A stretch of DNA of 48,556 nucleotides from Candidatus Firestoneibacteriota bacterium (GTDB taxonomy: Bacteria > Oederibacteriota > D2-FULL-39-29): assembly GCA_903928075.1 (NCBI GenBank), contig CAIYPD010000100.1, positions 1 through 48,556 on the forward strand, in the 5' to 3' direction. The position numbers and the translations under genes were made by a program. How positions within the stretch are numbered: the first letter of the stretch is position 1; the number at the start of each line of letters is the position of its first letter. Positions 4,171 to 48,556 of the stretch are shown here, one piece after another. Under the pieces are notes generated by a model, which saw nothing but the letters and a program-made list of their open reading frames with translations, made no database searches and was not told the origin of the DNA.

Positions 4171-4577
4171 AAGAAAAAGGTCTATAAGGGTTCTTAAGGT
4201 TTGTAAGGTTTTTAAAGTTTGTAAAGTCTAATATCTTTGAAGGATATTGTTTGTTTTAATCTGACTTTCATAAATGTAAGATAAAGATATTTAGTCATCC
4301 GTCGACGCTTTGTGGCGGAAGTGGAATCAAAAGTTTTTAAATCAGTGGCCACCTTCGGTGAGATATCGCCAAAGGCGGAAAATCTTGTTCATAAGGTCTG
4401 TAAAGGGGTAAAGCAAAAAGCGGTAAAAAAAGGATTTAAAATCTTTTTCCTTTATAGACCGTTATGGATTATCTTTTATAGACGATTATGGACTTTTATG
4501 GACATTTGTAGACGCACGAGGTTTTTACAGGCCGTATTGTTATTCAGGTACATTATTTTCGAGGGAAGGTATTTAAA
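4171..4577 (+). repeat. 407-bp repeat-filled spacer inside the exporter gene pair
   Basis: No credible gene. In order it holds: a forward array of 9-10 nt units of the type GTTTGTAAGG (about 4176-4230); a 76-nt block (4226-4301) matching 16529-16604 at about 69 of 76 positions with no gaps; the 17-nt motif GTGGCGGAAGTGGAATC (4312-4328), one mismatch from 16643-16659; a few forward units (about 4392-4410); and an inverted array with CTTTATAGAC, TTATGGAC and TTGTAGAC units (about 4449-4514) that can pair with the forward units. A GTG-initiated reading frame (4312-4581) begins inside the repeat motif and is judged spurious. Confidence 0.8.
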
Positions 4578-6275
4578 ATGAGAGATTTTATTCTGCTTCT
4601 GCGGATGTCCTGGGCGGGTTTTCGAAACGGGGCAAAGAAGAAAGAAAAAGGTACCGCGGTAAAGCGCATTATTCTTGTAGGTATTGCCCTGATATTTCTA
4701 TTGAGTGTTTTTGCGATTTTTCATAACCTGCTCCGCTATTTCAGTACTATTCCTATGTTCGGGGACCTGCTGGTTTGGAAACTTTTAGGGATGGTCTTTC
4801 TCTCTTTTATGTTCATGCTTTTATTTTCGAATGTCATTGTCACCATTTCTACTTTTTATCTTTCTGAGGATATGCCTCTTCTTTTAACTCTGCCCCTTGA
4901 ACTGCCGGCGATAATATTTTCCAGATTCGTGCATACTGTAATTAACAGCTCCTGGATGGTTCTGGCCATGGGTATTCCGGTCTTTGCGGCGTATACAGTC
5001 GCTTTAAAAGCCGGCGTTATGACTTTTTTCTTTTCGATGGCTGTCATAACTCTTTTTCTGGTAATAATAGCCTCTGTAAGTATCTCTTTTGCCATGGGTT
5101 TAATAAGCATTTTTCCGGCCCGGCGCACAAGGGATTTATTTATGCTTCTTTCGATAGGACTCTTGAGTTTTATTGTGGTGATGTTTCGGATGCTGAAACC
5201 GGAAAGGTTCACAAACCAGCGTGAGCTGGCGGGTTTTTCGGAATTTATGAGATCCTTTGAGGCCCCCGAAGCCCCGTATCTTCCCAGCGGTTGGGCGACA
5301 AACGCCATAACCTCGTTTTTTAAATACAATTTTACGGAAGCCTATATCAACACCGGTTACCTGATACTGGCGGCGGCAGTTTCCGCGGGTGTCATGCTTT
5401 TTATCGGGAAAAAATTATTTATGAAAGGCTGGTGGAATACCGCCGAGAATCAACTGCAGAAATATAGAAAGAAAAAAATAGACGCCTATGATCTTAGAAA
5501 AATATTCCCTTTCGTCAAATCAAACATAATAGAAGTGGCGGTCAAGGACATCAAAAACTTTGTAAGAGACTCCTCCCAGTGGCCGCAGTTAATGATGCTG
5601 GTTTCTGTGGTTATTATCTATCTCTTCAATGTCACAAATATTCCGCTCGATAAATTGCCCGCTAATATTTACGCTAAATACATAAATGATATTATTTTCT
5701 TCCTGAATATGGGTTTTGCCGGGTTTATAATTGCGGCAGTTGCCGCCAGGTTTGTTTTCTCCTCGATTAGTCTGGAGGGGAAGGCCTTCTGGGTAATAAG
5801 GACCAGTCCCCTGAGTATTAAAAAATTTATCTGGGAAAAATACTGGATGAGTTTCTTTCCACTGCTTATTCTTTCCGAGACGCTTATCGGCCTCTCGGTA
5901 TATTTTCTTAGAATTGATACTTTTATGACACTGGTCTCCATGGGCACGGTCTTCTTTTTCTCGCTTTGCATCGCCTCTCTCGGTATAGGTATAGGCGCAA
6001 TTTATCCGAAGTTTAAGACCGATAACTCTGCAGATATTGCCGCAAGTTACGGTGGAATTATTTACATGATATTTTCAATGCTTTATATCGGTGTTTCTAT
6101 AGTGCTGGTTGCCATTCCGGTCAACGCCTATTATGCCAACCGGGTAATGGGGACGGTTCATTTTAACCAGCCATATATTATCGGCGCGCTGGGCATCTTC
6201 CTTTTGATCCAGCTGGCAGCCTTCGTGCTCCCGATGTATCTCGGTGAGAAATCTTTAAATGACCTGGAAATTTGA
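4578..6275 (+). CDS. ABC-2 type exporter, membrane permease
   Basis: 565 residues with about a dozen hydrophobic segments spread over the whole length and no soluble domain, typical of large ABC-2-type permeases. A helix group occupies roughly 30-290. A cytoplasmic stretch rich in Lys and Asp (about 290-335) separates it from a second group (about 335-560). It is preceded by GAGGGAAGG at 4561-4569, 8 nt before ATG. It pairs by position and family with the ATPase at 3415-4170. The exported substrate is unknown. Confidence 0.85.
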   Translation: MRDFILLLRMSWAGFRNGAKKKEKGTAVKRIILVGIALIFLLSVFAIFHNLLRYFSTIPMFGDLLVWKLLGMVFLSFMFMLLFSNVIVTISTFYLSEDMPLLLTLPLELPAIIFSRFVHTVINSSWMVLAMGIPVFAAYTVALKAGVMTFFFSMAVITLFLVIIASVSISFAMGLISIFPARRTRDLFMLLSIGLLSFIVVMFRMLKPERFTNQRELAGFSEFMRSFEAPEAPYLPSGWATNAITSFFKYNFTEAYINTGYLILAAAVSAGVMLFIGKKLFMKGWWNTAENQLQKYRKKKIDAYDLRKIFPFVKSNIIEVAVKDIKNFVRDSSQWPQLMMLVSVVIIYLFNVTNIPLDKLPANIYAKYINDIIFFLNMGFAGFIIAAVAARFVFSSISLEGKAFWVIRTSPLSIKKFIWEKYWMSFFPLLILSETLIGLSVYFLRIDTFMTLVSMGTVFFFSLCIASLGIGIGAIYPKFKTDNSADIAASYGGIIYMIFSMLYIGVSIVLVAIPVNAYYANRVMGTVHFNQPYIIGALGIFLLIQLAAFVLPMYLGEKSLNDLEI

Positions 6276-6324
6276 TAAGTGAGTAACTCCGAATTACCGG
6301 AGGGAAAAAGTAAATACTGAATTA

Positions 6325-6353
6325 TTGATATAGGCACCCCAATATGATATAAA
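6325..6353 (+). promoter_or_regulatory. Candidate sigma70 promoter for the sugar cassette
   Basis: TTGATA (6325-6330), 17-bp spacer, TATAAA (6348-6353), 52 bp before the ATG at 6406. It lies downstream of the permease gene and a small CTCCG/CGGAG hairpin (about 6292-6307), so it likely starts a new transcript. Sequence match only. Confidence 0.5.
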
Positions 6354-6405
6354 AAGAAGGTAGTTGTTTTATAGATAAAAATAAATAATATATAAAAGGC
6401 GGAGA

Positions 6406-7317
6406 ATGAAAAAGATTGCGCTTGGAATTAATACGGGGTTCGCGGTAAACAGGTTTCCTGAGCCGGAAGTTTGGGTGAAGATAGCCGGCCAGACACTGGG
6501 CTTAAGGCATGTCCAGTTTACGGCCGATCTGCTTAATCCTTTTTTGCCCAAGAAAATCGTGGAAAGCGAAACTAATAAAATAATTAAAAATTTACGCAAA
6601 TATGATGTGGGTATTGACTGTACTTTCACCGGTTCTTTTACCCGGGTAAATCACCTGATGCATCCGGACGCAAAAATGCGGGAAGTATGGTTTGAGTGGT
6701 TCAAAAAGTTCCTGCTCCTGTCAAAAAATCTTGGTGCAAAAAGCGCCGGAAGTCATTTCGGGATACTATCCGACACCGATGTTAAAAATAAAAGCAGATA
6801 CAACTCTCTGGTAAAAGGGGCAATTGATTACTGGCAGGAGCTCGCTCTCTACGGAAAAAAGATAGGCCTTGATTTTCTGAATTTTGAGCCGATGTCTATA
6901 CCCCGGGAGATGGCTTACACTATTAAAGAAACAAAAGCCCTGCTGGAAAGGACCAATGAAGGTATCGCCATTCCTATGCTTCTTTGCCTGGATGTTGATC
7001 ACGGCTTTGCCTCCTCAAAAGACCCTCGAGATAACGACCCTTATGCCTGGCTGGATGAATTTGCGGGAGTTTCCCCCATCATTCATATCAAACAGAGCCT
7101 TTTTGACAAAGGCGGGCATTACCCTTTCACAAAAGAATATAACGCGAAAGGAAGAATAATTCCGGAAAAGGTTGTGGACATTATTATCAAAAAGGGCTGT
7201 GAAGAGACATTGCTTATTCTGGAAATTTCACACCGCGAACGGTATCCGCAGGACCTGAAGGTTGTGGATGACCTTTTAGAATCTGTAAAATTCTGGCGTA
7301 CCGCCGTAAAGGACTGA
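6406..7317 (+). CDS. Sugar-phosphate isomerase/epimerase-like TIM-barrel protein
   Basis: 303 residues, resembling the xylose isomerase-like TIM-barrel (AP-endonuclease-2 fold) superfamily that includes ketose and tetrulose-phosphate epimerases. Conserved-looking acidic and His positions sit at strand ends: GSHFG (about 127-131), LNFEPMS (about 163-169), LCLDVDHG (about 193-200), IHIKQ, and LILEISHRE near the end. These fit a metal-dependent aldose-ketose isomerase or epimerase. It is followed closely by two zinc dehydrogenases and a ketose-phosphate 3-epimerase, which supports a role in polyol or rare-sugar phosphate conversion. Relatives such as tetrulose-phosphate epimerases are possible, but the substrate cannot be set from sequence. 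AAGG lies 6 nt before ATG. Confidence 0.7.
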   Translation: MKKIALGINTGFAVNRFPEPEVWVKIAGQTLGLRHVQFTADLLNPFLPKKIVESETNKIIKNLRKYDVGIDCTFTGSFTRVNHLMHPDAKMREVWFEWFKKFLLLSKNLGAKSAGSHFGILSDTDVKNKSRYNSLVKGAIDYWQELALYGKKIGLDFLNFEPMSIPREMAYTIKETKALLERTNEGIAIPMLLCLDVDHGFASSKDPRDNDPYAWLDEFAGVSPIIHIKQSLFDKGGHYPFTKEYNAKGRIIPEKVVDIIIKKGCEETLLILEISHRERYPQDLKVVDDLLESVKFWRTAVKD

Positions 7318-7322
7318 GAATT

Positions 7323-8375
7323 ATGATGAAAGCCGCAGTATTGCATAAAGTCGGGGATTTAAGATATGAAGAAATACCCATTCCAAAAATTTCGGAAGGG
7401 GAAGCGTTAATTAAAGTAAAAGCGGCCGGAATCTGTAATTCTGATATACCCCGGGTAAAAAGCTCGGGGGCTTATCTGTACCCTATTGTACTGGGCCATG
7501 AATTCTGCGGGGTCGTGGAAAAAAGGGCAGCCGGAGAAAATCACGGCGTCTTTCAGGCCGGTTCGCGCGTGGCGGTCTTTCCGCTTATTCCCTGTAAAAA
7601 ATGCCCTTATTGCGAGAAAGGGGAGTTTGCGCAGTGTAATAATTATGATTATCTCGGTTCCCGGGCCAACGGGGGTTTTTCTGAATATGTCAAAGTCCCG
7701 GTCTGGAATCTTTTAAAGATACCGGATAATGTCGGATTTGAGGAAGCGGCTCTCGCCGAACCCGTCGCAGTAGGACTCCATGCCATCAGAAGATTCGGGG
7801 TGGACATCGGGGATAAAGTTGTTGTTTACGGTGCGGGGACCATCGGCCTGGCGCTGGTGGCCTGGGCAAAAATTCACGGGGCCGGCAAGGTCGTGCTGGT
7901 GGATATTATGAAGGAGAAACTCGATTACGCAAAAAAACTTTATGATTTTGTTGAAATAATAAATGCAGGGGAAACGGAACCCGTCAAGGAGCTTAAGAGG
8001 CAGTCCAATGAGCTCGGTTTTGACCTGGCCATAGAAAGTGCGGGATCAAGTGTTTCGTTCGAGCAGTGTATTCGAAGCGTGAGGAAGTTTGGTAAGGTCG
8101 TATTCATGGGAAATATTCATACGGATGTTGTTTTACCACAGGCGACGGTCTCGAATATTTTGCGTAACCAGATTTATATGACCGGCACCTGGAACTCCTC
8201 CTTTGCGGCTTTACCGAAAAATGAATGGAAAATAACTTTAGATTATATTTCAAACGGCCAGCTGAATGTCAAAAACTTTATCTCCCACAGGTTTAAGCTC
8301 AAAGACTGCAACAAAGCCTTTGATATGATGGCCTCGAGGAAAGAGTTCTTTAACAAAGTAATGTTTATGTTTTAA
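7323..8375 (+). CDS. Zinc-dependent dehydrogenase, galactitol-1-phosphate 5-dehydrogenase-like
   Basis: 350 residues, medium-chain dehydrogenase/reductase. Catalytic-zinc residues C38, H59, E60 and E146 and structural-zinc cysteines C91, C94, C97, C105 are present, followed by the Rossmann motif GAGTIGL. The stretch around FPLIPCKKCPYC, YLGSR and NGGFSEY and the C-terminal SHRF region resemble GatD, which oxidises galactitol-1-phosphate to tagatose-6-phosphate with NAD+. The usual CGSD at the catalytic zinc reads CNSD (38-41), a Gly-to-Asn change. Start: ATG 7323 or the adjacent ATG 7326; AAGGA lies 9 nt before the first. It begins 5 nt after the isomerase stop. GatD-like specificity is an inference. 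Confidence 0.82.
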   Translation: MMKAAVLHKVGDLRYEEIPIPKISEGEALIKVKAAGICNSDIPRVKSSGAYLYPIVLGHEFCGVVEKRAAGENHGVFQAGSRVAVFPLIPCKKCPYCEKGEFAQCNNYDYLGSRANGGFSEYVKVPVWNLLKIPDNVGFEEAALAEPVAVGLHAIRRFGVDIGDKVVVYGAGTIGLALVAWAKIHGAGKVVLVDIMKEKLDYAKKLYDFVEIINAGETEPVKELKRQSNELGFDLAIESAGSSVSFEQCIRSVRKFGKVVFMGNIHTDVVLPQATVSNILRNQIYMTGTWNSSFAALPKNEWKITLDYISNGQLNVKNFISHRFKLKDCNKAFDMMASRKEFFNKVMFMF

Positions 8376-8524
8376 ATAAGATAACAAGAGTACGGAAGAT
8401 GAGGCTTGGATGGTTGGAGGCTTAGAGGCTTGGCAAGAGATAAGAATACAAGATTAAAAGAAATGCAAAATCTATGTAAGTTTTTTCATGTTGTCTTGTA
8501 ATTTGTCTGCGAGGAGGAAGTATA
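8376..8524 (+). repeat. Family B repeat tracts with inverted partner
   Basis: The spacer starts with AACAAGAGTACGG directly after the GatD-like stop. It then has a short GAGGCTT repeat (GGCTTGGATGG, GGAGGCTTAGAGGCTTGG), a second forward tract with AATACAAGATTAAAAG, and an inverted tract CATGTTGTCTTGTAATTTG (8488-8506). The GAGGAGGAAG at 8511-8520 is the ribosome binding site of the next gene, 4 nt before its ATG. Confidence 0.6.
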
Positions 8525-9562
8525 ATGAAAGCGGCTGTATTAGAAGCACTTGATAAGATTTCGCTTAAAGAAACAGCAGTGCCTGAAATTGATGCGGAGA
8601 GTATTCTTGTCCGTGTAAAGGCCTGCTCGGTCTGTGGTTCGGATATCAGGATATTTCATTCCGGAAATTCGCGGGTAAAACCGCCGGTGGTTATAGGGCA
8701 TGAAGTGGCGGGAGAAATTGCTAAAGTAGGCAAGAATGTTAAAAACTTCAAAGCCGGGGATAAAATTGCTTTGGGCGCGGATGTGCCCTGCGGCGAGTGT
8801 GATTTCTGTAAAAACGGTTTGGGCAATAATTGTGCGGTTAACTATGCCATAGGCTATCAGTTCCCGGGCGGCTTTGCAGAATACATGGTTTTGAACGAAA
8901 CCACGGTAAAATACGGGCCGGTCAATAAAATACCTGAAGGCGTGAGTTTTGAAGAAGCCTCTCTTGCCGAACCACTGGCATGCTGCATAAACGCCACCGA
9001 AAGGTCGCGCATCGAATTAGGGGACACAGTCCTAATTATTGGCGCGGGCCCCGCGGGCATTATGCTTCTGCAACTGGCGAAAATTCTTGGTGCCGCAAAA
9101 GTTATTATTTCACAAAGATCCAAACACCGGCTGGAACAGGCAAAAAAATTCAATCCCGATGTGGCCATAGAGGGCACCGGCGAGGAATTGATCAAACAGG
9201 TGCTAAAAGCCACGAACGGCGCGGGACCTGATGTAATTTTTACCGCCTGTCCTTCTAATGAAGCGCAGCAGGATGCGATTAAACTGGTAAAGCAAAGAGG
9301 CCGGGTTAATTTCTTCGGCGGTTTGGCGAAAGGCAAGAGTGAGATAACAATAGACAGCAACCTTATTCATTACAAGGAATGCAATGTGAGCGGTTCGCAC
9401 GGCTCGGTCCCGAGGCAGCATAAACTTGCTCTGGAACTTATCGCCGCAAAAAAAATAAATGTAAAGGACTTGATCTCGCACAGGTTTAAACTCGCTGAAA
9501 TTGATAAAGCATTCCAGGCGGCCGAACAGCATAACGGAATGAAGGTTATAGTCGAATGTTAA
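8525..9562 (+). CDS. Zinc-binding alcohol/polyol dehydrogenase (sorbitol-dehydrogenase-like)
   Basis: 345 residues, second medium-chain dehydrogenase of the cassette. Catalytic zinc set C37, H59, E60, E149; structural cysteines C89, C92, C95, C103; nucleotide motif GAGPAGI. The C-terminal SHRFKL segment resembles that of the neighbouring GatD-like enzyme, so the two may be distant paralogues. Family relatives oxidise sorbitol, other polyols or threonine; the actual substrate is unknown. A strong GAGGAGGAAG precedes the ATG. The stop overlaps the start of the 3-epimerase by 7 nt, implying coupled translation. Confidence 0.82.
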   Translation: MKAAVLEALDKISLKETAVPEIDAESILVRVKACSVCGSDIRIFHSGNSRVKPPVVIGHEVAGEIAKVGKNVKNFKAGDKIALGADVPCGECDFCKNGLGNNCAVNYAIGYQFPGGFAEYMVLNETTVKYGPVNKIPEGVSFEEASLAEPLACCINATERSRIELGDTVLIIGAGPAGIMLLQLAKILGAAKVIISQRSKHRLEQAKKFNPDVAIEGTGEELIKQVLKATNGAGPDVIFTACPSNEAQQDAIKLVKQRGRVNFFGGLAKGKSEITIDSNLIHYKECNVSGSHGSVPRQHKLALELIAAKKINVKDLISHRFKLAEIDKAFQAAEQHNGMKVIVEC

Positions 9563-10248
9563 GAAAAAACAAAATTTCCGCGTCTTTGATGTGCGCGAAC
9601 TTCCTGAATCTGGCCGAAGATGTAACAGCGCTTTCCCGGGGCGGCGCGGATTGGCTGCATTTTGATATTATGGACGGAACTTTTGTGCCCAACTTCACTC
9701 TGGGCCCCGATATTGTAAAAACCTTAAGGCCCGTCACTAAATTAAAATTAGATGTGCACCTTATGATAGAGGAACCTATCAGGTATGTTAACCGGTTTGC
9801 GGAAGCGGGGAGCGACATAATAGTCGTACACCAGGAAGCCTGCAGGCATTTACACCGCACGATAATGGCCATAAAAGAGTGCGGTAAAATTGCCGGGGTC
9901 TCCATAAATCCCGCGACGAATATAAAAGTTTTAAAGGATGTCCTGACAGAGATTGACCTGGTGCTTGTTATGTGCGTCAACCCCGGATTTGCCGGCCAGA
10001 AATTCATATCCCATTCCGTGGATAAAGTGAAAGATCTTAGAGAAATGCTCGTCAGTTACGGACTACAGGATAAAATAGAGATTCAGGCCGATGGGAATAT
10101 TAATAATGAAACTTCGGCCCGTCTCAATTTTGCCGGTGCCACTAATTTTGTGGCCGGAACCTCCTGCATATTCAAAAAGGGTGAGGATGTTTACGAAAAT
10201 ACCGTTAAGTTCAGAAAACATCTTGATAACCTGAGTCTTAAGCCTTAA
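9556..10248 (+). CDS. Ribulose-phosphate 3-epimerase family protein (possibly allulose-6-phosphate type)
   Basis: 230 residues, TIM barrel of the Rpe family. The metal and catalytic residues H35 and D37 (HFDIMDG), H68 (DVHLM) and D179 (ADGN) are all present. Two signatures differ from housekeeping Rpe: VNPGFAGQ (141-148) instead of VNPGFGGQ, and ADGN instead of VDGG. GFAGQ is also found in AlsE, the allulose-6-phosphate 3-epimerase. With two polyol dehydrogenases and an isomerase upstream, a hexulose-phosphate or other ketose-phosphate substrate is plausible, but ribulose-5-phosphate cannot be excluded. It overlaps the preceding dehydrogenase gene. Confidence 0.85.
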   Translation: MLRKNKISASLMCANFLNLAEDVTALSRGGADWLHFDIMDGTFVPNFTLGPDIVKTLRPVTKLKLDVHLMIEEPIRYVNRFAEAGSDIIVVHQEACRHLHRTIMAIKECGKIAGVSINPATNIKVLKDVLTEIDLVLVMCVNPGFAGQKFISHSVDKVKDLREMLVSYGLQDKIEIQADGNINNETSARLNFAGATNFVAGTSCIFKKGEDVYENTVKFRKHLDNLSLKP

Positions 10249-10250
10249 CG

Positions 10251-10268
10251 CAGGTCTAACCTGTTTTT
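10251..10268 (+). terminator. Short intrinsic terminator after the sugar cassette
   Basis: CAGGT (10251-10255), loop CTA, ACCTG (10259-10263), then five T. The stem is only 5 bp, so it may be weak. It lies just after the epimerase stop and before the promoter at 10308. Confidence 0.45.
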
Positions 10269-10307
10269 CCTTTAGCGTTGCTTGCTTTTCCTGAAAACCG
10301 CTTCTTC

Positions 10308-10337
10308 TTGACTTTTTCAGCCTGAAAAGGTTATAAT
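10308..10337 (+). promoter_or_regulatory. tig: Sigma70 promoter of tig-clpP-clpX
   Basis: TTGACT (10308-10313), 18-bp spacer, TATAAT (10332-10337). Transcription would start near 10344, leaving a leader of about 110 nt. The leader contains a hairpin at about 10415-10437 (GGTTC/GAACC core with flanking G+C pairs) ending just before the AAAAAGGAGA ribosome binding site, which could influence translation. Confidence 0.7.
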
Positions 10338-10453
10338 CATTGGAATTATTCCGGCAATTGGTAAAAGCCTGTAATTAACTGTTTTTTTGTTTGTTTTGCG
10401 GCTTATTGAAAATTGGCCCGGTTCTTTTGAACCCGGCGATAAAAAGGAGAGTT

Positions 10454-11734: not shown

Positions 11735-11781
11735 CAAGACGAGAAGAATATAAGAAAACAAGACGACAAGAGACGTGACAG
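11735..11781 (+). repeat. Family B ACAAGACGACAAG tract after tig
   Basis: Begins at the base after the tig stop: CAAGACGAGAAG, then AAACAAGACGACAAGAGACG. It is the clearest copy of this purine-rich family. The reverse complement of a similar tract occurs at 44314-44338, which is the corresponding 3' side of the minus-strand gene. Confidence 0.6.
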
Positions 11782-11859: not shown

Positions 11860-11875
11860 GTGTTAAGGGGGTTTT

Positions 11876-13732: not shown

Positions 13733-13937
13733 TGTCCGTAAGGGTCTGTAAGGTTTGTAAGGTTCGTAAGTTTTGTAAAGTTTGTAAAGTCTGTAAAGGT
13801 CTATAAATGTCTGTAAAGGACAAGAAAGTTCGGAAAGGGAAAAGAGTCACGGAATTTTGGATTATTCAACTTCAAGACAGGTTTTTGCTTTACACCTTTA
13901 TAGACTTTTACGGACATTTACGAACTTTTATGGATTG
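13733..13937 (+). repeat. Family A forward and inverted repeat arrays after clpX
   Basis: A forward array of about nine units (GTCTGTAAGG, GTTTGTAAGG, GTTCGTAAG, GTTTGTAAAG, GTCTATAAAT and similar, 9-10 nt period) at about 13733-13819 starts 9 nt after the clpX stop. An inverted array with CTTTATAGACTTTTACGGAC and CATTTACGAAC units follows at 13887-13937. The arms are imperfectly complementary over about 40-50 nt, so a transcript could form a long hairpin. Bases 13938-14012 hold no recognisable element except the next ribosome binding site. Confidence 0.75.
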
Positions 13938-15231: not shown

Positions 15232-16413
15232 ATGGTGAAAACAATGTACAGGTTTTTTTTCGCGTTTCTTTTTGTTGGTCTGAGTTCTTCTTTTGTTACG
15301 GCTTCTGATGTGAAGATAGGCACCAATAAGGAAATACTTGTTGAAGGTAAACCGTTTTTTCCGATAATGACCTGGTGTAATCCCAGCAGTCTGATGGATT
15401 TTAATATCAGCCTGGGCATAAACACTTTTATCGGTCAGGGCGGGCAAAGCGAAAAACCGAAAGATTATCTTGATGCCTGTAAAAGCAGAAATGTTCTTGG
15501 AGGTATTACCTTTGACGGCAGCCCGGATAAGATAGAAGGAGAGGTTCTGAGCCTTAAAGATCATCCCGCACTGCTTTTCTGGTGGATGCCCGATGAACCG
15601 GATATTTACGGGAAAACGAGCGACGGCACTTCGAAAGCCCCCCGGCTCACTCCCGAAGAGATAAAGTCATTATATGATGCAGTTAAAAAAGCAGACGCGA
15701 CCCATCCCGTACCTTTGAATTTCGGCAGTGAGCAGGCTATGGGTGGGGGACCGATAAAAAGTAAATACTACCCGGAATATTCCAAATATGCGGATCTTAT
15801 AGGCTTTGATATCTATCCCTGTAACATAGGCGAACCGGAAAAGTTGTATTTATTTGCAAAAGGTCTCGGAATTCTTAATAAATATGATAAAGGGCAAAAG
15901 CCTCATTTTGTCTGGGTGGACTGTTCCTTCTTCGGGGCCGAAGGCGGGGTAACTCCGAAACCAAAAGCAAGAGCTCCGAATGCGGCCGAATTAAAAGCAC
16001 AGGTCTGGATGTGTATCGTTAACGGCGCTAAAATGATAGGTTACTTCGGCCACAGCTGGAGCCCGTACTATAACTGGGCCCGCATTCCGAAAGACTTGCA
16101 GGAAGAAATTAAAAAAATTAACAGGAATATCACCGCGCTCTCCGGAGTAATTCTGGCAAAAGACTCGGAGAAAAAGGTTACTGTAGAAGATGCGGAAAAG
16201 ACCCAGGTAGATACTCTGGTTAAGGAAGCCGACGGTAAACTGTATATTTTTACCTCCAACAGAAAGAACGGAGAAGGTAAGGTGAGTTTTACGGTCCCGG
16301 TTTCCAAAGGCATTGTAGAGGTCTATGATGAAGGCAGAAAAATAGAAGTAAACGGCGGAAAGTTTGTAGATAATTTTATGTCTTTTGAACCGCATATATA
16401 TGTAGTGCAGTAG
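15232..16413 (+). CDS. Secreted glycoside-hydrolase-like protein
   Basis: 393 residues beginning with a signal peptide (basic start, hydrophobic 8-20, likely cleavage near TAS at 23-25). The mature part looks like a TIM-barrel glycosidase: the strand LLFWWMPDEPD ending in E122 resembles the acid/base position of clan GH-A enzymes, followed by IGFDIYP (190-196) and HFVWVD (225-230). A small beta-rich C-terminal domain occupies about 320-393. A nucleophile Glu cannot be assigned with certainty, and no family number can be given. AAGGAG lies 5 nt before ATG. It sits between two amino-acid genes and has no evident link to them. Confidence 0.6.
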   Translation: MVKTMYRFFFAFLFVGLSSSFVTASDVKIGTNKEILVEGKPFFPIMTWCNPSSLMDFNISLGINTFIGQGGQSEKPKDYLDACKSRNVLGGITFDGSPDKIEGEVLSLKDHPALLFWWMPDEPDIYGKTSDGTSKAPRLTPEEIKSLYDAVKKADATHPVPLNFGSEQAMGGGPIKSKYYPEYSKYADLIGFDIYPCNIGEPEKLYLFAKGLGILNKYDKGQKPHFVWVDCSFFGAEGGVTPKPKARAPNAAELKAQVWMCIVNGAKMIGYFGHSWSPYYNWARIPKDLQEEIKKINRNITALSGVILAKDSEKKVTVEDAEKTQVDTLVKEADGKLYIFTSNRKNGEGKVSFTVPVSKGIVEVYDEGRKIEVNGGKFVDNFMSFEPHIYVVQ

Positions 16414-16437: not shown

Positions 16438-16683
16438 GTGTTCGTAAGGTTTGTAAGCAAAGCTTTTCCCGAGAGGAAGGATATATAGATGCCAACTATC
16501 GTTGACATAGCGAGATAAGGTTTGTAAGGTCTAAAATCGTTGAGGGATATTTTTTGTTTTAATCTTACTTTCATAAATCTAAGATAAAGATATATAGTCA
16601 TCCGCCTTTCTGCGAAAGCAGTCCGCCAAGCTTAAGGGTGGAGTGGCAGAAGTGGAATCTTTTTTAAGAAAAGGGGAAGGGAT
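16438..16683 (+). repeat. Family A units plus conserved 76-nt block before serA
   Basis: Forward units (TTCGTAAGGTTTGTAAG; TTTGTAAGG at 16521-16529) are followed by the 76-nt block 16529-16604, about 91% identical to 4226-4301, and by GTGGCAGAAGTGGAATC at 16643-16659. The first 24 nt of the block, with 6 nt before it (16523-16552), are identical to 44258-44287. Between the block and the 17-nt motif, CTTTC/GAAAG and TCCGCC/GGTGGA pairs allow a folded structure. The GGGGAAGGG near 16672-16680 serves serA. Confidence 0.75.
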
Positions 16684-40921: not shown

Positions 40922-41904
40922 AGAAATTATTTTTGATAAGTGTTATCGTGTTGGGTTTGTTTCAGCCGGTTTTAGCCGCGCCTGAAGTAGTGGATAAAGT
41001 TCTTGCTGTTATAAACGAAGAAATGCTTTCGCTTTCAGAGTTTAACGCGGTCTTTGTGAAGTTTGCCTTGCGTGCGGGGACCAGCGTACCGCCGGAGGAA
41101 TTGAAAAAAGCGCGGAAAGAGATATTTAACCAGCTTCTGGAAAATAAACTTCTCTTGCAGGAGGCCCGGAACCGTAACATTGAAGTCGGTAAAAGGGAAA
41201 TGGAAAGCGCAATTGAAAACGCTAAAAAGAGCATTGGCGGGGCTGAAATATTCGCGGAGCAACTGAAGAAAGAAGGCCTTACGGAAGCAGCTTACCGCGA
41301 TATGGTGAAAGAATCTATGATGGCCCAGCGATTGATCGCCGAAGCGGTCCGGAGAGACATAAAAATTGAAGTTAAGGACTATCAGGATGTTTATGAGAAG
41401 AATATCGGAAAATTCAGGGAAGAGGATAAAGTAGTCTTATCCTATATATTCATTAAATACGGGGCAGGAATTGCGGAAGCGGATGCCTTAGTTAAAACAG
41501 AAAGCATCATTAAAGAACTCAATGCAGGTCTGGCTTTTGAGGCGGCTGCAAAAAAATACTCAGAAACAGCCACGGCAAAAGAAGACGGGGGGGCACTCGG
41601 AACCATAAAACCCGGGGATATGCCTGCTTTAGGCGTTGAACCTTTCAGACTCAAAGTCGGGGAGATAAGCGCACCTGTTAAATTACCCGGTGGATACGGT
41701 ATACTAAAAGTAACCAATAAGACGGCGGGGAAACAGTACTCTCTGGCCGATGAAATTACTGATAAAGACGGGCAAAAAATTTCTGTGAGAGAAATAGCCC
41801 AGAGAATGGCGATGGAAGAAAAATTTAAAGCGAAGTATGAAAATTTTATAAAAAAAATTAAAGAAAAGTCGGTCATTAATATTAAAGTTGACGAGTTTAA
41901 GTAA
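40918..41904 (+). CDS. Periplasmic SurA-like peptidyl-prolyl isomerase
   Basis: 328 residues from GTG 40918, overlapping the preceding stop. Signal peptide cleaved at about LA-A (20/21). VVDKVLAVINEEMLSLSEF is the typical SurA N-terminal segment; one parvulin domain at about 165-265 (VLSYIFIKYG, DGGALGTIKPGDMP, LPGGYGILKV). SurA chaperones outer-membrane proteins; this version has one rotamase domain rather than two. Paired with the lipoprotein PPIase. Confidence 0.88.
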   Translation: MKKLFLISVIVLGLFQPVLAAPEVVDKVLAVINEEMLSLSEFNAVFVKFALRAGTSVPPEELKKARKEIFNQLLENKLLLQEARNRNIEVGKREMESAIENAKKSIGGAEIFAEQLKKEGLTEAAYRDMVKESMMAQRLIAEAVRRDIKIEVKDYQDVYEKNIGKFREEDKVVLSYIFIKYGAGIAEADALVKTESIIKELNAGLAFEAAAKKYSETATAKEDGGALGTIKPGDMPALGVEPFRLKVGEISAPVKLPGGYGILKVTNKTAGKQYSLADEITDKDGQKISVREIAQRMAMEEKFKAKYENFIKKIKEKSVINIKVDEFK

Positions 41905-41959
41905 ACTGCCGCGCTCTAAAGAGCAGGGTAGGATCGGCAAGTAAAATAACGGAGTTATT

Positions 41960-43000
41960 ATGAAGATAAAAGTATCGATAGTTGGTGCAACCGGTTATTC
42001 CGGTATTGAATTGATCCGGCTCCTTTTGCCTCATCCTGAGGTAGAACTGGCAATGCTTACCTCTGAATCATACGCGGGACTTAAGGTGCAGGAGGCGCTC
42101 CCCTTCTTTAATCTGGATAAGGTGCTTGTACCTTTTAGCCCCAAAAAGACGGCGGAAGAAAGTGACCTGGTATTTTTATGTCTGCCTCACACGAAGTCTA
42201 TGGCGGCAGCTGCAGAAATACTCAAAGCCGGTAAGATGCTTATTGATTTGAGCGCGGATTTCCGTCTAAAAGATAAAGCTATTTATGAGACCTGGTACGG
42301 CGCAAAACATACTGAGCCGCGGCTTTTAAAGAAGTGTGTTTACGGCCTGCCCGAGATAAACCGGAAGGCGATAACAGGTTCAACTTTTACGGCCAATCCC
42401 GGCTGCTATCCGACAAGTATTATACTCGGCGCGTTTCCTGCGGTAAAAGCAAAATTAGTCGAGGCCTCGGCTATTGTGGTTAATTCCATATCCGGGGTTT
42501 CCGGCGCAGGGCGTAAGGCGAAGCCTGAACTGCAATTTTCCGAAATGAATCAGAATCTGAAGGCTTATAAACCCGCAACCCATCAGCATATACCTGAAAT
42601 AGAAATGGGGATAGCTCTGGGCAGCGGTACTGCCGGAGTCCGGGTGGCTTTTACTCCCCATCTTGCGCCGGTCAACCGCGGAATACTTTCGACCCTCAGT
42701 TTTGCGCTCAAGAAGAAAATTTCCACCGCCGAGGTTATTGAGATTTATAAAGCAGCATTTTCCGGCGAGCAGTTCGTCCGGATCTTACCGGAAGGCCGTC
42801 TGCCTGAGACAAAATATGTGGCGGGCTCCAATTATTGCGATATCGGCATAAAAGTTGACAGCCGGACCGGCCGCCTGCTTGTAGTTTCTGCTATAGACAA
42901 TCTGGTAAAAGGCGCTTCGGGCCAGGCAGTGCAAAATATGAATATTATGTGCGGCTTTGAAGAACATACGGCTCTCTTGAATGCGGGAATGATACTATGA
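41960..43000 (+). CDS. argC: N-acetyl-gamma-glutamyl-phosphate reductase
   Basis: 346 residues. NADP-binding GATGYSG (9-15), catalytic Cys149 in ANPGCYPTS, and THQHIPEIE with the active-site His. It catalyses the third step of arginine synthesis. CGGAG lies 7 nt before ATG. It overlaps argJ by 4 nt (ATGA). A small GCTCT/AGAGC hairpin lies at about 41909-41920. Confidence 0.96.
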   Translation: MKIKVSIVGATGYSGIELIRLLLPHPEVELAMLTSESYAGLKVQEALPFFNLDKVLVPFSPKKTAEESDLVFLCLPHTKSMAAAAEILKAGKMLIDLSADFRLKDKAIYETWYGAKHTEPRLLKKCVYGLPEINRKAITGSTFTANPGCYPTSIILGAFPAVKAKLVEASAIVVNSISGVSGAGRKAKPELQFSEMNQNLKAYKPATHQHIPEIEMGIALGSGTAGVRVAFTPHLAPVNRGILSTLSFALKKKISTAEVIEIYKAAFSGEQFVRILPEGRLPETKYVAGSNYCDIGIKVDSRTGRLLVVSAIDNLVKGASGQAVQNMNIMCGFEEHTALLNAGMIL

Positions 43001-44193
43001 AATATAAAGGAATAACCGTTAAAGGTTTCAGGGCGGCGGGTCTTCACTGCGGGGTGAAAAAAATCTCCGGCAGGAAGGACCTGGCACTTATTTATTCGGA
43101 AGTGCCCGCCGTGGCTTCCGGGGTTTTCACTAAAAACAAGGTTAAGGCCGCACCGGTTATACTTTCCATGAAAAATATTAATAAGGGACTGATAAGCGCT
43201 ATTGCTGCCAACAGCGGCAATGCCAATGCCTGCACCGGAAAAGAAGGAATGAAGTCAGCGCTTTTAATGGCGGAAAAAGCAGCTTTCTTTACCGCGTCTG
43301 ATAAAAACGAGATTATTGTTTGTTCTACCGGCGTGATAGGCGTACCTTTGCCTGTAGGGAAAATACTCGATGGTATTGAAACGGCAAGTTATATGCTCCG
43401 TGAAGACGGCCTTTTAAATGCTGCGGAAGCCATAATGACTACGGATACTTTCAGGAAAACGGCGCAGGCGAAATTCAGGATAAACGGCAGGAATTGCGCC
43501 CTTTTTGGTATGACCAAGGGCTCGGGAATGATACATCCTAATATGGCGACTATGCTTTGTTTTATTCTCACGGATATTTCAATCTCGAAAAAAATGCTGG
43601 ATAAGTCCTTTAAAGAAATTAATTCGGAAACTTTTAACGCGATTACCGTGGACGGAGATACCAGCACAAATGATACGGCAGTTATTCTGGCTAACGGTAT
43701 GGCGGGAAATAAACCAGTAACAGCCGGCGGAAAAGCTTATACTGTCTTTTATAAGGCGCTAAAAGCTGTTATGCTTAACCTTGCGAAAGCGATAGTAAAA
43801 GACGGCGAAGGCGCGTCTAAAGCAATAGAAGTTTGCGTTAAAAATGCAGGGACAAAGGCCGGGGCCTTAAAAATTGCCAAGGCCATCGCCGGTTCAAGCC
43901 TTTTTAAAACTGCCATTTACGGCGGCGACCCGAACTGGGGCCGGATACTTTCTGCTATCGGCAATTCCGGAGTAAAATTCATAGAAAACAAAGTTGATAT
44001 TTCTTTTGGCTCATTGGCGATAGCAAAAAAAGGCGTCGAAGTTAAATTCAATGGAAAAGCGGCCCATAACCTGCTTATGAAAAAAGAAGTTCTTGTAAAT
44101 GTAGACCTGCATAACGGGAAAAAGAACGCCTCCGCTTATACCTGTGACCTGACGGAAGGATATATCAGGATAAACGCGCATTATAGGACATAA
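42997..44193 (+). CDS. argJ: Bifunctional glutamate N-acetyltransferase / ornithine acetyltransferase
   Basis: 398 residues. The self-cleavage site is visible at Ala184-Thr185 in NMATMLCF, giving alpha and beta chains with Thr185 as nucleophile; TVDGDTSTND and GGDPNWGR are conserved. ArgJ recycles the acetyl group in arginine synthesis. Coupled to argC. A repeat array begins 9 nt after its stop. Confidence 0.96.
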   Translation: MKYKGITVKGFRAAGLHCGVKKISGRKDLALIYSEVPAVASGVFTKNKVKAAPVILSMKNINKGLISAIAANSGNANACTGKEGMKSALLMAEKAAFFTASDKNEIIVCSTGVIGVPLPVGKILDGIETASYMLREDGLLNAAEAIMTTDTFRKTAQAKFRINGRNCALFGMTKGSGMIHPNMATMLCFILTDISISKKMLDKSFKEINSETFNAITVDGDTSTNDTAVILANGMAGNKPVTAGGKAYTVFYKALKAVMLNLAKAIVKDGEGASKAIEVCVKNAGTKAGALKIAKAIAGSSLFKTAIYGGDPNWGRILSAIGNSGVKFIENKVDISFGSLAIAKKGVEVKFNGKAAHNLLMKKEVLVNVDLHNGKKNASAYTCDLTEGYIRINAHYRT

Positions 44194-44201
44194 AGAAGGG
44201 G

Positions 44202-44338
44202 AAAGTCTGTAAATGTCCGTAATGGTCTAAGAGAAAGTCTATAAAGTCCATAAAGTCTGTAAGGTCTAAAATCGTTGAGGGATATTTATGTAAGTGCCAG
44301 GCTTTAATTTTGATATCTTGTTGTCTTGTCGTCTTGAC
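44202..44338 (+). repeat. Family A array, hairpin core and inverted family B tract
   Basis: Forward units GTCTGTAAAT, GTCCGTAATG, GTCTATAAAG, GTCCATAAAG and GTCTGTAAGG (about 44205-44264) run into the core ATCGTTGAGGGATAT; 44258-44287 is identical to 16523-16552. At 44314-44338 the reverse complement of a family B tract appears (TTGTTGTCTTGTCGTCTTGAC). Read on the minus strand, that tract lies about 50 nt after the stop of the minus-strand gene. Bases 44339-44389 show no feature. Confidence 0.7.
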
Positions 44339-44389
44339 TCCCATCCCTTGTTTCTGTTTAATCCAAGGTCCGCAAGGTTTAATGGTAAA

Positions 44390-45850
44390 TTATTTCACAA
44401 ATGTTGTTGAAAAGTCAAAACCGGTCATTATTTTATTCCAATAGTCTACATTCATTTCAGAACTGCATTTTTCTTGGATGAATTTCTTCATGAGTTTTAT
44501 TTTACCGTCAAGCAGTTTGTCAGTTTTTGCCCGATTTGTCATTTCCTCTGCTTTGTCCCTCAGCATCAAAAATGCGAAGGTCTCTGCTTTATCTTCAGCC
44601 ATATTTTTTGCGGCGTAGAGAGAAGCATAGCCAGGTATGGACCGATCAAGATACAACACCTGACCCAAATGGCTCTCGGGCCAGTCCGGCATGTTTCCGG
44701 GGTGTTTGAAATCTAACCAATGAAAAAGTTCATGATGAAAAACCTTCAGATCGGGAACAAGTATATTTAAATATATGCTGTTATTATCGTTTCTGAAAAT
44801 TCCGCCGATCTTAATCTTGTTGTCATTTCTGGTAGTGTCACTGGAAAAATCCTTATAAAAGTTAATATCTTTAATATTGATTCCTTTTATAAGACTAATC
44901 GGGTATTTGTATAATTCTTTTTGAAAATTAGAGAGGTAAGCGGCAAATTTAGCCATATCTGATTTACCGATCTTTTTATATTCCATGTTGGAAGAAAATA
45001 TAGGGGAAGAAGCTGAATACTCATAATTTAGCGACAAATAATATTTATTTTTGATTTGCTTGACATATTCTTTGACTCTGGGTTCGTTTTTGTCTGAAAG
45101 TTCTGAGGAAAAATCATAACCATCGATTATATTTTGCCAGTACACTGAATCCATATCGGAGGAGAAATGCTCTTGAATAAACTTCTTAATAAGTCTTATT
45201 TTAGTGGCAATAATATATTCTGATTTTACAGTATTTAACAACTCCAGCGCCTCGGTTTTGATCATTAATCGCGCGTATATCTCAGCCATGTCCTCGAAGA
45301 TATCCTTTTGCGCATATTGTGATACAAAAAGCAGGTGTCTTGGCACAGGGCTACGATTTATATTGGACCAGTTTTGAATGGAAGCACCTGCCCTATTATA
45401 AATATAATGAAAAAGTTTGTGATGGAACATCAACATGTTAGTTTCATTAATGTTCAAAGAGATGCCGTCATTGGTGTTTTTCGAAGTGCTTCCGTCGGGT
45501 TCGTTGTATCGTTCTGTGTCAACGGTGGAAGAGCTTTTGTAGAGGAAAATATTTCTAAGATTGATTTTTTTAATAAAGTCTTCCGAATATTTGCTTAATT
45601 CGGGCTGAAGTTCTTTTAGATACAGGGCAAGCCTCGGTAAGTCATCGTTTTCAATCTTTGTGGTGCTTGGAATAGAGTAAGCTATTGGCTTTGATGGTTC
45701 ATATCTGTAAATTATTGATATATTGTAAATGGTTTTGAATTCACTTGCATATTTACTGATAGTGACTTCATCATCATTGTTACCCGCAAAGTAAAACCTT
45801 GTAGAAATAAACAATATCAGCATTATAAGCGGTATTGATTTGTTTTTCAT
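44390..45850 (-). CDS. Secreted protein with two metallopeptidase-like domains, one degenerate
   Basis: 486 residues from ATG at 45850; the frame is open another 110 codons upstream but that part is antisense to the rpsB region. Signal peptide about 1-22. Two homologous halves follow (about 30-250 and 258-482), each with a YEP/YSASSP strand, a NxxxLP/SDMAKFA..YL helix, an HH-x-LFH motif and a KKFIQE..SS-M...YW ending. The second half has an intact HELFH zinc motif (373-377) and a downstream E423 as possible third ligand. In the first half the motif is HKLFH (144-148), with the catalytic Glu replaced by Lys, although H144, H148 and E190 remain. The gene is visibly AT-richer than its neighbours and is the only minus-strand gene. 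Family not recognised. Confidence 0.7.
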   Translation of the reverse strand: MKNKSIPLIMLILFISTRFYFAGNNDDEVTISKYASEFKTIYNISIIYRYEPSKPIAYSIPSTTKIENDDLPRLALYLKELQPELSKYSEDFIKKINLRNIFLYKSSSTVDTERYNEPDGSTSKNTNDGISLNINETNMLMFHHKLFHYIYNRAGASIQNWSNINRSPVPRHLLFVSQYAQKDIFEDMAEIYARLMIKTEALELLNTVKSEYIIATKIRLIKKFIQEHFSSDMDSVYWQNIIDGYDFSSELSDKNEPRVKEYVKQIKNKYYLSLNYEYSASSPIFSSNMEYKKIGKSDMAKFAAYLSNFQKELYKYPISLIKGINIKDINFYKDFSSDTTRNDNKIKIGGIFRNDNNSIYLNILVPDLKVFHHELFHWLDFKHPGNMPDWPESHLGQVLYLDRSIPGYASLYAAKNMAEDKAETFAFLMLRDKAEEMTNRAKTDKLLDGKIKLMKKFIQEKCSSEMNVDYWNKIMTGFDFSTTFVK

Positions 45851-45857
45851 CTGTAAT

Positions 45858-45886
45858 ATTATACTCCGGAAGGCTTTGTTTTTCAA
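45858..45886 (-). promoter_or_regulatory. Minus-strand promoter predicting a leaderless mRNA
   Basis: On the minus strand: TTGAAA (45886-45881), 17-bp spacer, TATAAT (45863-45858), then 7 nt to ATG 45850. Transcription should begin at or next to the A of the start codon. It diverges from the rpsB promoter. Confidence 0.65.
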
Positions 45887-45952
45887 AATATTTGTAGGTA
45901 AATTGAATTCTACTTGTTTTCTTGTTCTTTCTTGGTTTGCTTCATTAAGTAC

Positions 45953-45981
45953 TTGCAAAACTTTGGTAAAACCTATATAAT
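45953..45981 (+). promoter_or_regulatory. rpsB: Sigma70 promoter of rpsB-tsf-pyrH
   Basis: TTGCAA (45953-45958), 17-bp spacer, TATAAT (45976-45981). Start expected near 45988, giving a leader of about 100 nt. Confidence 0.75.
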
Positions 45982-45997
45982 AGTTAAAAATCTTACA

Positions 45998-46057
45998 CGC
46001 CTGCTGACGGAAGCGGGGGTCCCTTGTACGAGGGCCCGCGGAAGGAAGACGCCGGCG
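45998..46057 (+). promoter_or_regulatory. rpsB: Structured rpsB leader, candidate r-protein autoregulatory RNA
   Basis: The leader is much more G+C-rich than its flanks and folds by eye into nested helices. CGCC.GC (45998-46004) pairs with GC.GGCG (46051-46057). GCGGG (46013-46017) pairs with CCCGC (46035-46039). CCCTT (46021-46025) pairs with GAGGG (46030-46034, one G-U) around a GTAC loop. A purine-rich internal loop lies between the outer and middle helices. AGGAGG (46073-46078) follows, 10 nt before ATG. S2 autoregulation is known in other bacteria; whether this is one is inferred. Confidence 0.5.
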
Positions 46058-46088
46058 AATGTAAAAAACCACAGGAGGAATACGCACT

Positions 46089-47006
46089 ATGCCGGTCATT
46101 TCTATCAAGTCACTTCTCGAATCAGGAGTCCACTTCGGACACCAAACCAAAAGATGGAACCCCAAGATGGAAAAATACATCTATGGGAAAAGAAACGGAA
46201 TCTACATCATCGATCTTCAGAAAACCGTAAAAAAACTCAAAGAAGCCTGCGATTTTATACGCAGCATTTCTGAAGCCGGCGGGTCCGTGCTTTTTGTCGG
46301 CACCAAGAGCCAGGCGCAGGAAATAATCACCGAAGAAGCCAAACGCGCGGGGATGTATTATGTCTCCTTTAGATGGCTCGGCGGAATGCTTACCAACTTT
46401 AAAACGATAAAAAAATCCATCAAAAGGCTGGAAGAGATAGAAAAGATGAAAGCCGAAGTTTTTGATAAACTTCCCCGTCATGAAGTAATGGCGCTGGAAA
46501 AAGAAATGGGCAAACTTAATAAAGTTCTCGGCGGCATCCGCCATATGGATAAATTACCGGCCGCGCTTTTTGTCGTGGATACAAAAAAAGAGCACACCGC
46601 CATCCTTGAAGCCGCAAAACTTGATATTCCCGTAGTCGGGGTAGCCGATACCAATGCTGACCCGGATGAAATTGAATATGTTATTCCCGGTAATGATGAT
46701 GCTATCCGGTCCATTAAACTGATAACCGGTCTTATTGCGGAATCCGTACTTGAAGGAAAAAAAGGCAAGATTGATGCGGCTATGCTGGAAAGCAAGAAAG
46801 AAGCTGCTCCGGCGGAGATTGTGCCCGAGAGTGCAGAGGTTATACCTGCTGCCGAAACCGAAGAAATACCGGTTCTGGCGGTGGATGAGTTACCTCTTGA
46901 AATAGACGAAGAAATTGAAACGGTCATAAGCAAGTTCGAGGAAGAACCCGAAATAAAAAAGACCGCGGTAAAAAAGAAGATTGTCAAGGAAGGGGGAGTT
47001 GAATAA
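46089..47006 (+). CDS. rpsB: 30S ribosomal protein S2 with acidic C-terminal extension
   Basis: 305 residues. The S2 core occupies about 1-227 ([48 protein letters not shown]). From about 228 to 305 is a Glu/Ala/Pro/Val-rich tail ending in a short Lys-rich stretch; extended tails occur in some phyla, but S2 is commonly about 230-260 residues. First gene of rpsB-tsf-pyrH; the stop overlaps the tsf ATG by 1 nt. Confidence 0.96.
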
Positions 47007-47593
47007 TGGTTTCTACAAAAATAATTGCTGAATTAAGAGAGAAAACCGGCGCAGGAATGATGCTCTGCAAAGAAGCCCTGGAACAAACCAACGGGGATAT
47101 GGAAAAAGCCGTAGAAGTGTTAAGGAAGAAAGGGGCGGCATCCGCTTCGAAGAGGGTTTCAAAATCCGTCAAAGCCGGTATTGTCTACGCTTATTTACAT
47201 ATGGATACCGTAGGCGCTATGGTTGAAGTCAACTGTGAAACCGACTTTGTCGCCAGGACCGATGATTTTAAAGAACTGGCAAAGGATATTGCTATGCAGG
47301 TTGCCGCGATGAATCCCATATATGTAAGAAGGGAAGATGTGCCTCCCGAGGTTTTGGAAAAGGAAAAAGCAATTTACAAAGATGAAGTTGCAAAATCGGG
47401 AAAACCCGCAAATATAGTCGAGAAGATTGTTGAAGGTAAGCTGGAGAAGTTCTATAAAGACTTCTGCCTTGTGGACCAGCTGTTCATAAAGGATGATAAA
47501 ATTCAGATAAAAGATCTTGTCGCGCAAAAAATAGGCAAGATAGGCGAGAATATCGTGATCAAAAGGTTTGCAAGATTTAAAATTGGGGAGTAA
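47006..47593 (+). CDS. tsf: Elongation factor Ts (short form)
   Basis: 195 residues. N-terminal UBA-like domain with REKTGAGMMLCKEAL, the Tu-binding TDFVAR (79-84), and one core domain; this is the short form seen in Thermus and others rather than the roughly 280-residue E. coli form. It exchanges GDP on EF-Tu. Starts in the rpsB stop codon (TAATG). Confidence 0.95.
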   Translation: MVSTKIIAELREKTGAGMMLCKEALEQTNGDMEKAVEVLRKKGAASASKRVSKSVKAGIVYAYLHMDTVGAMVEVNCETDFVARTDDFKELAKDIAMQVAAMNPIYVRREDVPPEVLEKEKAIYKDEVAKSGKPANIVEKIVEGKLEKFYKDFCLVDQLFIKDDKIQIKDLVAQKIGKIGENIVIKRFARFKIGE

Positions 47594-47596
47594 ACC

Positions 47597-48313
47597 ATGG
47601 AAAAAACCCGTCCTAAATATAAAAGAGTATTGCTAAAACTTGGCGGGGAGGCGTTGTCCGATGAGAACGAATTCGGCTTAAACCCGACCTCTCTTAGGAA
47701 TCTCGCGCTTGAAATAAAAAAAGCCAAAGAGACCTTAAATGTGGAGATTGCGATTGTCCTCGGCGGCGGCAATATTTTCAGGGGTAGTTTTGCCCGGGAT
47801 ATGGACAGGGTAAATGCGGATTATATGGGGATGCTGGCAACGGTTATTAACGGTCTGGCCCTGCAGGATTCCCTTGAGAAAGTAGGGGTCTTTACCAGGG
47901 TACTTACGGCCATAGAGATGGAAAAATTGGCTGAACCCTACATCAGAAGGCGCGCAGTCCGGCATCTTGAAAAAGGCCGGGTGGTGATATTCGCCGGCGG
48001 CACGGGAAATCCTTATTTCACGACAGACACGGCGGCAGCTCTTAGAGCTTCGGAAGTGGGCGCTGAAGTGGTAATGAAGGGCACTAAAGTTGACGGAATA
48101 TTCACCTCGGATCCCAAGAAAGACAAATCCGCCAAGAAATATGATTCTATCAGTTACATGGATTTTATTAATAAACGGCTTAAGGTTATGGATACGACGG
48201 CCGTTTCCTTATGTATGGAAAACAATATTCCCATAATCGTATTTGATCTTAAAGAGAAGGGCTCAATATTAAAAGCCATATCTGGACAGAAAATAGGAAC
48301 GATGGTTACCTGA
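47597..48313 (+). CDS. pyrH: UMP kinase
   Basis: 238 residues, amino-acid-kinase family. KLGGEAL near the start, [44 protein letters not shown] and [10 protein letters not shown] are the PyrH signatures. It phosphorylates UMP to UDP and is usually hexameric and GTP-activated. GGGGAG lies upstream, 3 nt after tsf. The frr gene that commonly follows is not found in the remaining 243 bp. Confidence 0.96.
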
Positions 48314-48319
48314 GAAAAA

Positions 48320-48556
48320 GTCTTAAAGGTAAGTAAGGTCTGTAGTGTCTGTAAAGGTCCATAAAGGTCTATAAAGTCCATAAGGTCTAATATCGCTGAG
48401 GGATATCGTACGGTCTTAAAAGTCTGTAAGGTCCATAAGGTCTGTAAAGGTCTAAGATCATTTTTAACTTTTTAAATTTATAAGTACTGATATTTTATTG
48501 CGCTATTTTTAATTGTTTAATCAGCAATTAGTAATTAGCAATCAGTAATTTAGAAG
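48320..48556 (+). repeat. Family A array, hairpin core and family D tract after pyrH
   Basis: Forward units (GTCTGTAGT, GTCTGTAAAG, GTCCATAAAG, GTCTATAAAG, GTCCATAAG) start 7 nt after the pyrH stop. The core GTCTAATATCGCTGAGGGAT begins at 48385; ATATC/GATAT forms its stem. Further units run to about 48455. The window then becomes AT-rich and ends in a family D tract (CAATTAGTAATTAGCAATC, about 48522-48550). No gene is visible in these 243 bp. Confidence 0.75.

Follow-up and report, generated by a model that had tools for sequence, protein, structure and literature searches.

Arrays of degenerate 9–10-nt repeats favour gene 3′ ends in one order of uncultured bacteria

The window, i.e. the whole stretch of 48,556 nt that was analysed, contains arrays of short direct repeats downstream of the genes that end at positions 4170, 13724, 16413, 44193, and 48313. 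An earlier note on this DNA had placed one array directly after each of these stop codons. All five are present on the sense strand, starting about 9, 9, 26, 11, and 6–33 nt past the respective stops. Pfam supports an ABC ATPase, ClpX, ArgJ, and a member of the amino-acid kinase family (pyrH) as upstream gene products, as the note had named them, whereas its “glycosidase-like” gene, ORF 15232–16413, has no Pfam match. A search of the window with Rfam yielded no match above the gathering threshold.

Downstream of the ABC-transporter ATPase gene (3409–4170), a sense array of five strict units occupies positions 4180–4225 (+ strand), beginning 9 nt past the stop codon. Its units are, in order, GTCTATAA, GTTCTTAA, GTTTGTAA, GTTTTTAA, and GTTTGTAA. 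It is followed by tail module B (GTCTAATATCTTTGAAGGATATT; 4226–4248, +), after which come more modules of the mosaic (AAGATAAAGATATTTAGTCATCCG...). The same gap contains a second, short sense array of two units (4387–4404, +) and an antisense partner array of four units (4451–4503, −), with the next gene 75 nt further on. The clpX gap has a similar arrangement, with a sense array of eight strict units that starts 9 nt past the stop (13734–13817, +) and an antisense partner (13897–13935, −). The constant orientation that had been claimed for the arrays thus does not hold, because two of the five share their gaps with antisense arrays.

The short array downstream of ORF 15232–16413 has two units (16440–16457, +) and starts 26 nt past the stop. 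It is joined to module A, a 66-nt structured cassette with TAAG at both ends (TAAGCAAAGCTTTTCCCGAGAGGAAGGATATATAGATGCCAACTATCGTTGACATAGCGAGATAAG; 16454–16519, +), then come an additional unit (GTTTGTAAG) and tail module B (GTCTAAAATCGTTGAGGGATATT), which together span 16520–16552 (+). The convergent gap after argJ contains five sense units (44205–44263, +; 11 nt past the stop) and tail module B (44264–44286, +). In the pyrH gap, the sense array (48320–48384, +) begins with degenerate units 6 nt past the stop and continues with strict units from 48347, i.e. 33 nt past it. Tail module B (GTCTAATATCGCTGAGGGATATC; 48385–48407, +) and a second sense array of three units (48422–48448, +) lie beyond. 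Nearly all genes of the window are on the + strand, and therefore orientation within the window says little by itself.

Placement was analysed in 1.36 Mb, half of the host genome, with genes called by a simple dicodon model and no standard gene finder; several of the tests were picked post hoc, when the data had already been seen. Strict clusters, defined as at least two copies of GT[CT][CT][AGT]TAA, numbered 103 in 794 kb of the host genome, compared to 4.0 in third-order Markov sequence, and a chance origin was rejected. All but one of the 103 lie between called genes. The 1.36 Mb contain 167 arrays of GT[CT][CT][AG]TAA-R units, a density that may be overestimated because part of the sample consists of contigs known to carry units, while position and orientation should be unaffected. 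Almost all of these arrays are intergenic, and genes are almost never interrupted by the repeat elements.

The reading direction of the 167 arrays is away from a gene 3′ end in 107 cases and from a 5′ end in 49. In tandem gaps of the host, the first array is sense to the upstream gene in 76 of 91 cases (p = 5e-11), and the same is true for 24 of 32 tandem gaps in the congener G001. The mean distance of sense arrays from the stop codon is 35 nt, compared to 122 nt when the same blocks are placed randomly, and none of 5,000 placements came as close. The median is about 15 nt, and about half of the sense arrays start within 12 nt, versus 10% at random. For G001 the respective distances are 8.7 nt and 72 nt, again with 0 of 5,000 as close. 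Gaps with a one-sided orientation were divided 50 versus 15 (p = 1.6e-5). Stop proximity and sense bias are therefore real in the 1.36 Mb, according to the genome-scale check that the earlier note had proposed.

Nevertheless, the elements are not exclusive to 3′ ends. Antisense arrays make up 40 of the 130 arrays in tandem gaps and lie a median of 43.5 nt ahead of the next start, many of them at the far end of the gap and directly upstream of a ribosome-binding site. Antisense-only gaps amount to 15 of 89. Among gaps of at least 100 nt, arrays were found in 7 of 57 divergent and 82 of 361 tandem ones (p = 0.08). Gene 3′ ends are favoured by the arrays, yet they are not obligatory.

TAA precedes sense arrays 67 times versus 26 expected, but antisense arrays only 18 times versus 14, and thus stop proximity is more than a preference for a TAA target. 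A general rule of insertion 3′ of TAAR was rejected, since antisense arrays do not follow it, whereas cassette A does. TGA within 12 nt before an array was found in 1 of 46 cases, compared to 57 of 311 genes facing array-free gaps (p = 0.0025, post hoc). Six genes terminate within the first unit, which provides their TAA. Annotation would be affected, because some genes get their stop codon from an array.

An array is a run of 2–10 degenerate GT[CT][CT][AG]TAA-R units with a spacing of 9 nt (228 instances) or 10 nt (110 instances). The motif matches 85% of all GTnnnTAA words in or beside arrays, and variation consists chiefly of transitions at three positions. The identity at variable positions is 0.576 for neighbouring units and 0.563 for reordered units of the same array (p = 0.08). 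Recent slippage is not visible, and fresh slippage is unlikely because units do not resemble each other more when they are neighbours. Variable unit numbers and the head-to-tail tandem layout are what would be expected of a VNTR that grows and shrinks through replication slippage and has no special function. That origin is nevertheless very improbable in light of the unit comparison, the non-random position and orientation, and the recurrence of one motif at unrelated sites across the order.

Arrays form the ends of a larger, oriented mosaic, in which an array, a hairpin cassette joined at TAAG, another array, the tail GTCTAAAATCGTTGARGGATATT, and other repeats follow one another. In the host family, the tail usually comes directly after the array, and arrays are often interrupted by cassette A. 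This 66-nt, hairpin-forming cassette has TAAG or TAAR on either side, most of its copies lie between units, and tandem copies have one TAAG in common. Its inner hairpin has a few double compensatory changes, e.g. CG to AU at one pair. The cassette of a second family (f2) has the same plan with other stem sequences, a shared GGAAGGATAT loop, and many similar copies; the f2 units are GTT-type, usually three or four per array. The mean relative position after the stop is 0.15–0.18 for units and cassette, 0.40 for the tail, 0.49 for ATCTGTG repeats, 0.55–0.64 for hairpins and GAGCATCC, 0.68 for CTTGTCGTCTTG, and 0.82 for AATTAGCAATCAG. The sense bias is significant for units, cassette, tail, and ATCTGTG repeats.

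A sense array with an antisense array no more than 300 nt behind it was found 49 times in four genome sets, and the reverse arrangement was not found, i.e. arrays aim inward, toward the gap interior. A MITE would have terminal inverted repeats and a homologous interior; the pairing here is 49 inward and 0 outward, but the interiors between paired arrays are mostly unrelated apart from tail and cassette. One candidate for the mobilising enzyme would be a RAYT (Y1) transposase acting on a REP-like element. Y1_Tnp genes occur in every genome of the order except for the reduced genome G003, where the arrays are nearly lost (4 matches). However, none of nine Y1_Tnp loci is bordered by an array or cassette A, several Y1 genes bear a different palindrome (GGGACAGCGCC/GGCGCTGTCCC), and array-free relatives have Y1 genes equally often, which makes mobilisation by these transposases hardly credible.

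Hundreds of such 9–10-nt repeat arrays are carried by one order of uncultured bacteria. All nine genomes of the order had the exact two-unit pattern, compared to 0 of 36 other genomes of the phylum. Viral contigs yielded 25 matches in 2.9 million, nearly all of them two-unit matches without tail or cassette, and carriage by viruses was rejected.

For a comparison of orthologous gaps, we considered gaps of at least 80 nt among 177 gene pairs conserved between G000 and G001. Both species had an array in 6 gaps, only one species in 13, and neither in 66. Array presence was correlated (6/16 versus 3/69, odds ratio 13, p = 0.001), which can be due to descent or selection. Gaps that lack the host's array in the congener are mostly much shorter there, e.g. 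34 nt instead of 270 nt. In f2, G006 has an array but not the 121 nt of following sequence that G005 has. Target-site duplications or clean empty sites were not seen in the orthologous gaps, the species pairs being too divergent for an empty site to be aligned at sufficient resolution. Repeat elements are gained and lost between related species, beside some conserved sites. The clpX gap is such a site: G000, G001, and G002 each have a sense and an antisense array there, although the sequences are unalignable. In a divergent gap of f2, an inverted pair is 98.6–100% identical across species, compared to 85–88% for the neighbouring genes. Judged from this conservation, the pair does not look like a passenger but like a sequence that has a function or was recently converted.

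We conclude, with a probability of about 50%, that the arrays mark both ends of composite extragenic repeats of a mobile type, a family which is specific to the order and lies mostly in sense orientation at gene 3′ ends. The elements would spread or be re-copied, and selection would leave them in the space from a stop codon to the following ribosome-binding site, for the most part in sense. They would thereby join the transcribed 3′ flank, and some copies might have acquired a role there as long hairpins formed by inverted array pairs. Intergenic placement, stop proximity and sense orientation, inward pairs, the fixed module order, the cassette joined at TAAG and its counterpart in f2, the gaps in which only one species has an array, and the restriction to the order argue for composite repeats. 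The self-spreading repeat that the earlier note had offered as an alternative fits in so far as both the presence and absence of elements between species and their composite anatomy are concerned. Other results point the other way: unit numbers differ between arrays, unlike those of normal terminal repeats; the spacers of paired arrays mostly have nothing in common but tail and cassette; a mobilising enzyme was not found, the RAYT genes having a different REP alongside; neither a target-site duplication nor a clean empty site was seen; and the f2 inverted pair is far better conserved than its flanking genes.

The main rival of composite repeats is a 3′-UTR function, which is possible judging from sequence. 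A functional element would set mRNA 3′ ends or stability, and selection would retain the repeat where genes need it. Arrays, which read GUYYRUAAR in RNA, might bind a multivalent RNA-binding protein, or sense and antisense pairs might form long hairpins. For the clpX gap, a long RNA hairpin of the two arrays is predicted (−64.9 kcal/mol), which is far more stable than shuffled sequences (z = −4.5). The sense bias and stop proximity in two genomes are consistent with such a function, as are the correlated array presence, the recurrence of both clpX arrays in three species, and the one copy that is far better conserved than its flanks. The same is true for the unit motif, which is retained even though two neighbours resemble each other no more than units drawn at random from the array do.

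In contrast, folding is not a necessary property of arrays that lack a partner, as exemplified by the one-sided array of the pyrH gap (z = −0.7 for the predicted fold), and paired arrays showed no co-evolution, their own duplex energy being equal to that of pairs permuted with arrays of other gaps. Antisense-only and divergent gaps also argue against a 3′-UTR function, and shared presence may be plain common descent. CsrA, considered because of GGA motifs in cassette and tail, was rejected, as none of the nine genomes of the order has it. Intrinsic terminators, defined as a stable GC-rich hairpin with a T run behind it, showed no enrichment in the host's array gaps (5/81 versus 25/275, p = 0.5) and were rejected as an explanation of the arrays. 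Taken together, we regard a 3′-UTR function as a tentative possibility. A more specific version, in which sense GUYYRUAAR arrays and a conserved structured cassette directly past stops would form an RNA 3′-end system of one order, with an RNA-binding protein or nuclease that reads the arrays and defines the mRNA 3′ ends of hundreds of genes, appears unlikely.

Two f2 spacers (L150 and L242), judged by eye, resemble intrinsic terminators. A weak match of f2 to a miRNA model, far below the gathering score, was discarded because a long hairpin may fit such a model by chance.

The repeats might alternatively act as double-stranded DNA, with each unit being bound by a nucleoid or partition protein and the gaps being the places where sites are tolerated. 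In favour of this idea, units recur at roughly one helical turn (9–10 nt), their motif is conserved, and divergent gaps have copies, too, one of them strongly conserved. However, sites of this kind do not predict the sense orientation, the stop proximity, or the link with hairpin cassettes, and we consider this explanation quite improbable. Composite extragenic repeats remain the preferred reading.

The extragenic repeats known to us consist of single palindromes, of perfect tandem repeats, or of short repeats ahead of start codons. The STRR sequences of heterocystous cyanobacteria are lineage-specific, intergenic, short tandem repeats, as are the arrays described here, but their units have 7 nt; we know of no stop-codon or orientation rule for them. 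A literature search yielded no paper on the units described here. The nearest published pattern is that of the TAACTGA heptanucleotide direct repeats of marine Beggiatoaceae, according to the part of their description available to us (PMC4679880). These are intergenic, occur about 170 times per genome in two to six copies, and are scattered across several phyla; their orientation to neighbouring genes is non-random, and some overlap the upstream stop codon (PMC4679880). Short intergenic direct repeats with a non-random orientation are thus common to both. However, most of the 7-nt TAACTGA repeats lie just upstream of start codons and are aimed at them, whereas the 9–10-nt units lie mostly past stops and are aimed away from the gene, and the available part of that description (PMC4679880) includes neither hairpin cassettes nor inverted partners, both of which occur here.

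Enterobacterial REP/BIME elements are extragenic and of high copy number, and many lie 15–20 nt or less past a stop codon; both orientations occur, structure is possible, and a REP is a single palindrome of 20–40 bp (PMC12306157, PMC2817692). The arrays are likewise extragenic, of high copy number, and frequent near stop codons. Unlike REPs, whose palindrome comes with a conserved tetranucleotide, they consist of 9–10-nt units, have a hairpin only in cassette A, and do not border any of the nine Y1_Tnp loci examined. The tandem repeats of Borg elements have perfect units, are site-specific, and lie within ORFs in about half of the cases (PMC9879509), whereas here one degenerate motif is found genome-wide and coding sequence is avoided.

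We regard the arrays as a new family of extragenic repeats with a preferred orientation. The family is dense and order-wide, its position and orientation track gene 3′ ends, and it takes in structured cassettes at a constant TAAG junction. This family offers one system in which the origin of degenerate arrays without slippage can be addressed, and the same system bears on the question of whether stop-adjacent repeats are tolerated passengers or 3′-end signals.

In six genes of the host genome, e.g. at C2:299-2923 and C42:17275-18873, the first repeat unit supplies the stop codon through its TAA, and the encoded C-termini end in L, mostly SL*. Beyond the arrays, the gaps contain additional short-period repeat families, i.e. 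CTTGTCGTCTTG, AATTAGCAATCAG, ATCTGTG, and GAAGGTCGGAAGG, found at 44316-44350 and 48515-48550 of the window and in many other gaps. The order of these families 3′ of the arrays is reproducible among gaps, and the ATCTGTG repeats are likewise sense-biased (39 vs 6).

In f2, the second family of the order, two arrays in inverted orientation, separated by a 72-nt spacer, lie in a divergent gap (L147:4644-4797; counterparts in L148 and L149). The pair is 98.6-100% identical between species, in contrast to 85-88% for the flanking genes, and the adjoining 65 nt are 100% identical.

RAYT-type Y1 transposase genes of the host genome (C96:12426-13100 and C114) and of f2 (L151 and L152) are bordered by their own palindrome, GGGACAGCGCC...GGCGCTGTCCC, which constitutes a distinct REP family within the order.

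Module A, the hairpin cassette, contains a possible mini-ORF (window 16480-16518; ATG CCA ACT ATC GTT GAC ATA GCG AGA TAA), accompanied by a Shine-Dalgarno-like AGGAAGG. It would encode MPTIVDIAR*, which is similar to a LacI-family N-terminus. The mini-ORF is probably a coincidence, because some copies retain the hairpin but have an altered peptide.

The reduced 1.7 Mb genome G003, of the same genus as G002, has lost almost all arrays and every Y1_Tnp gene. It represents a natural knock-out for comparison.
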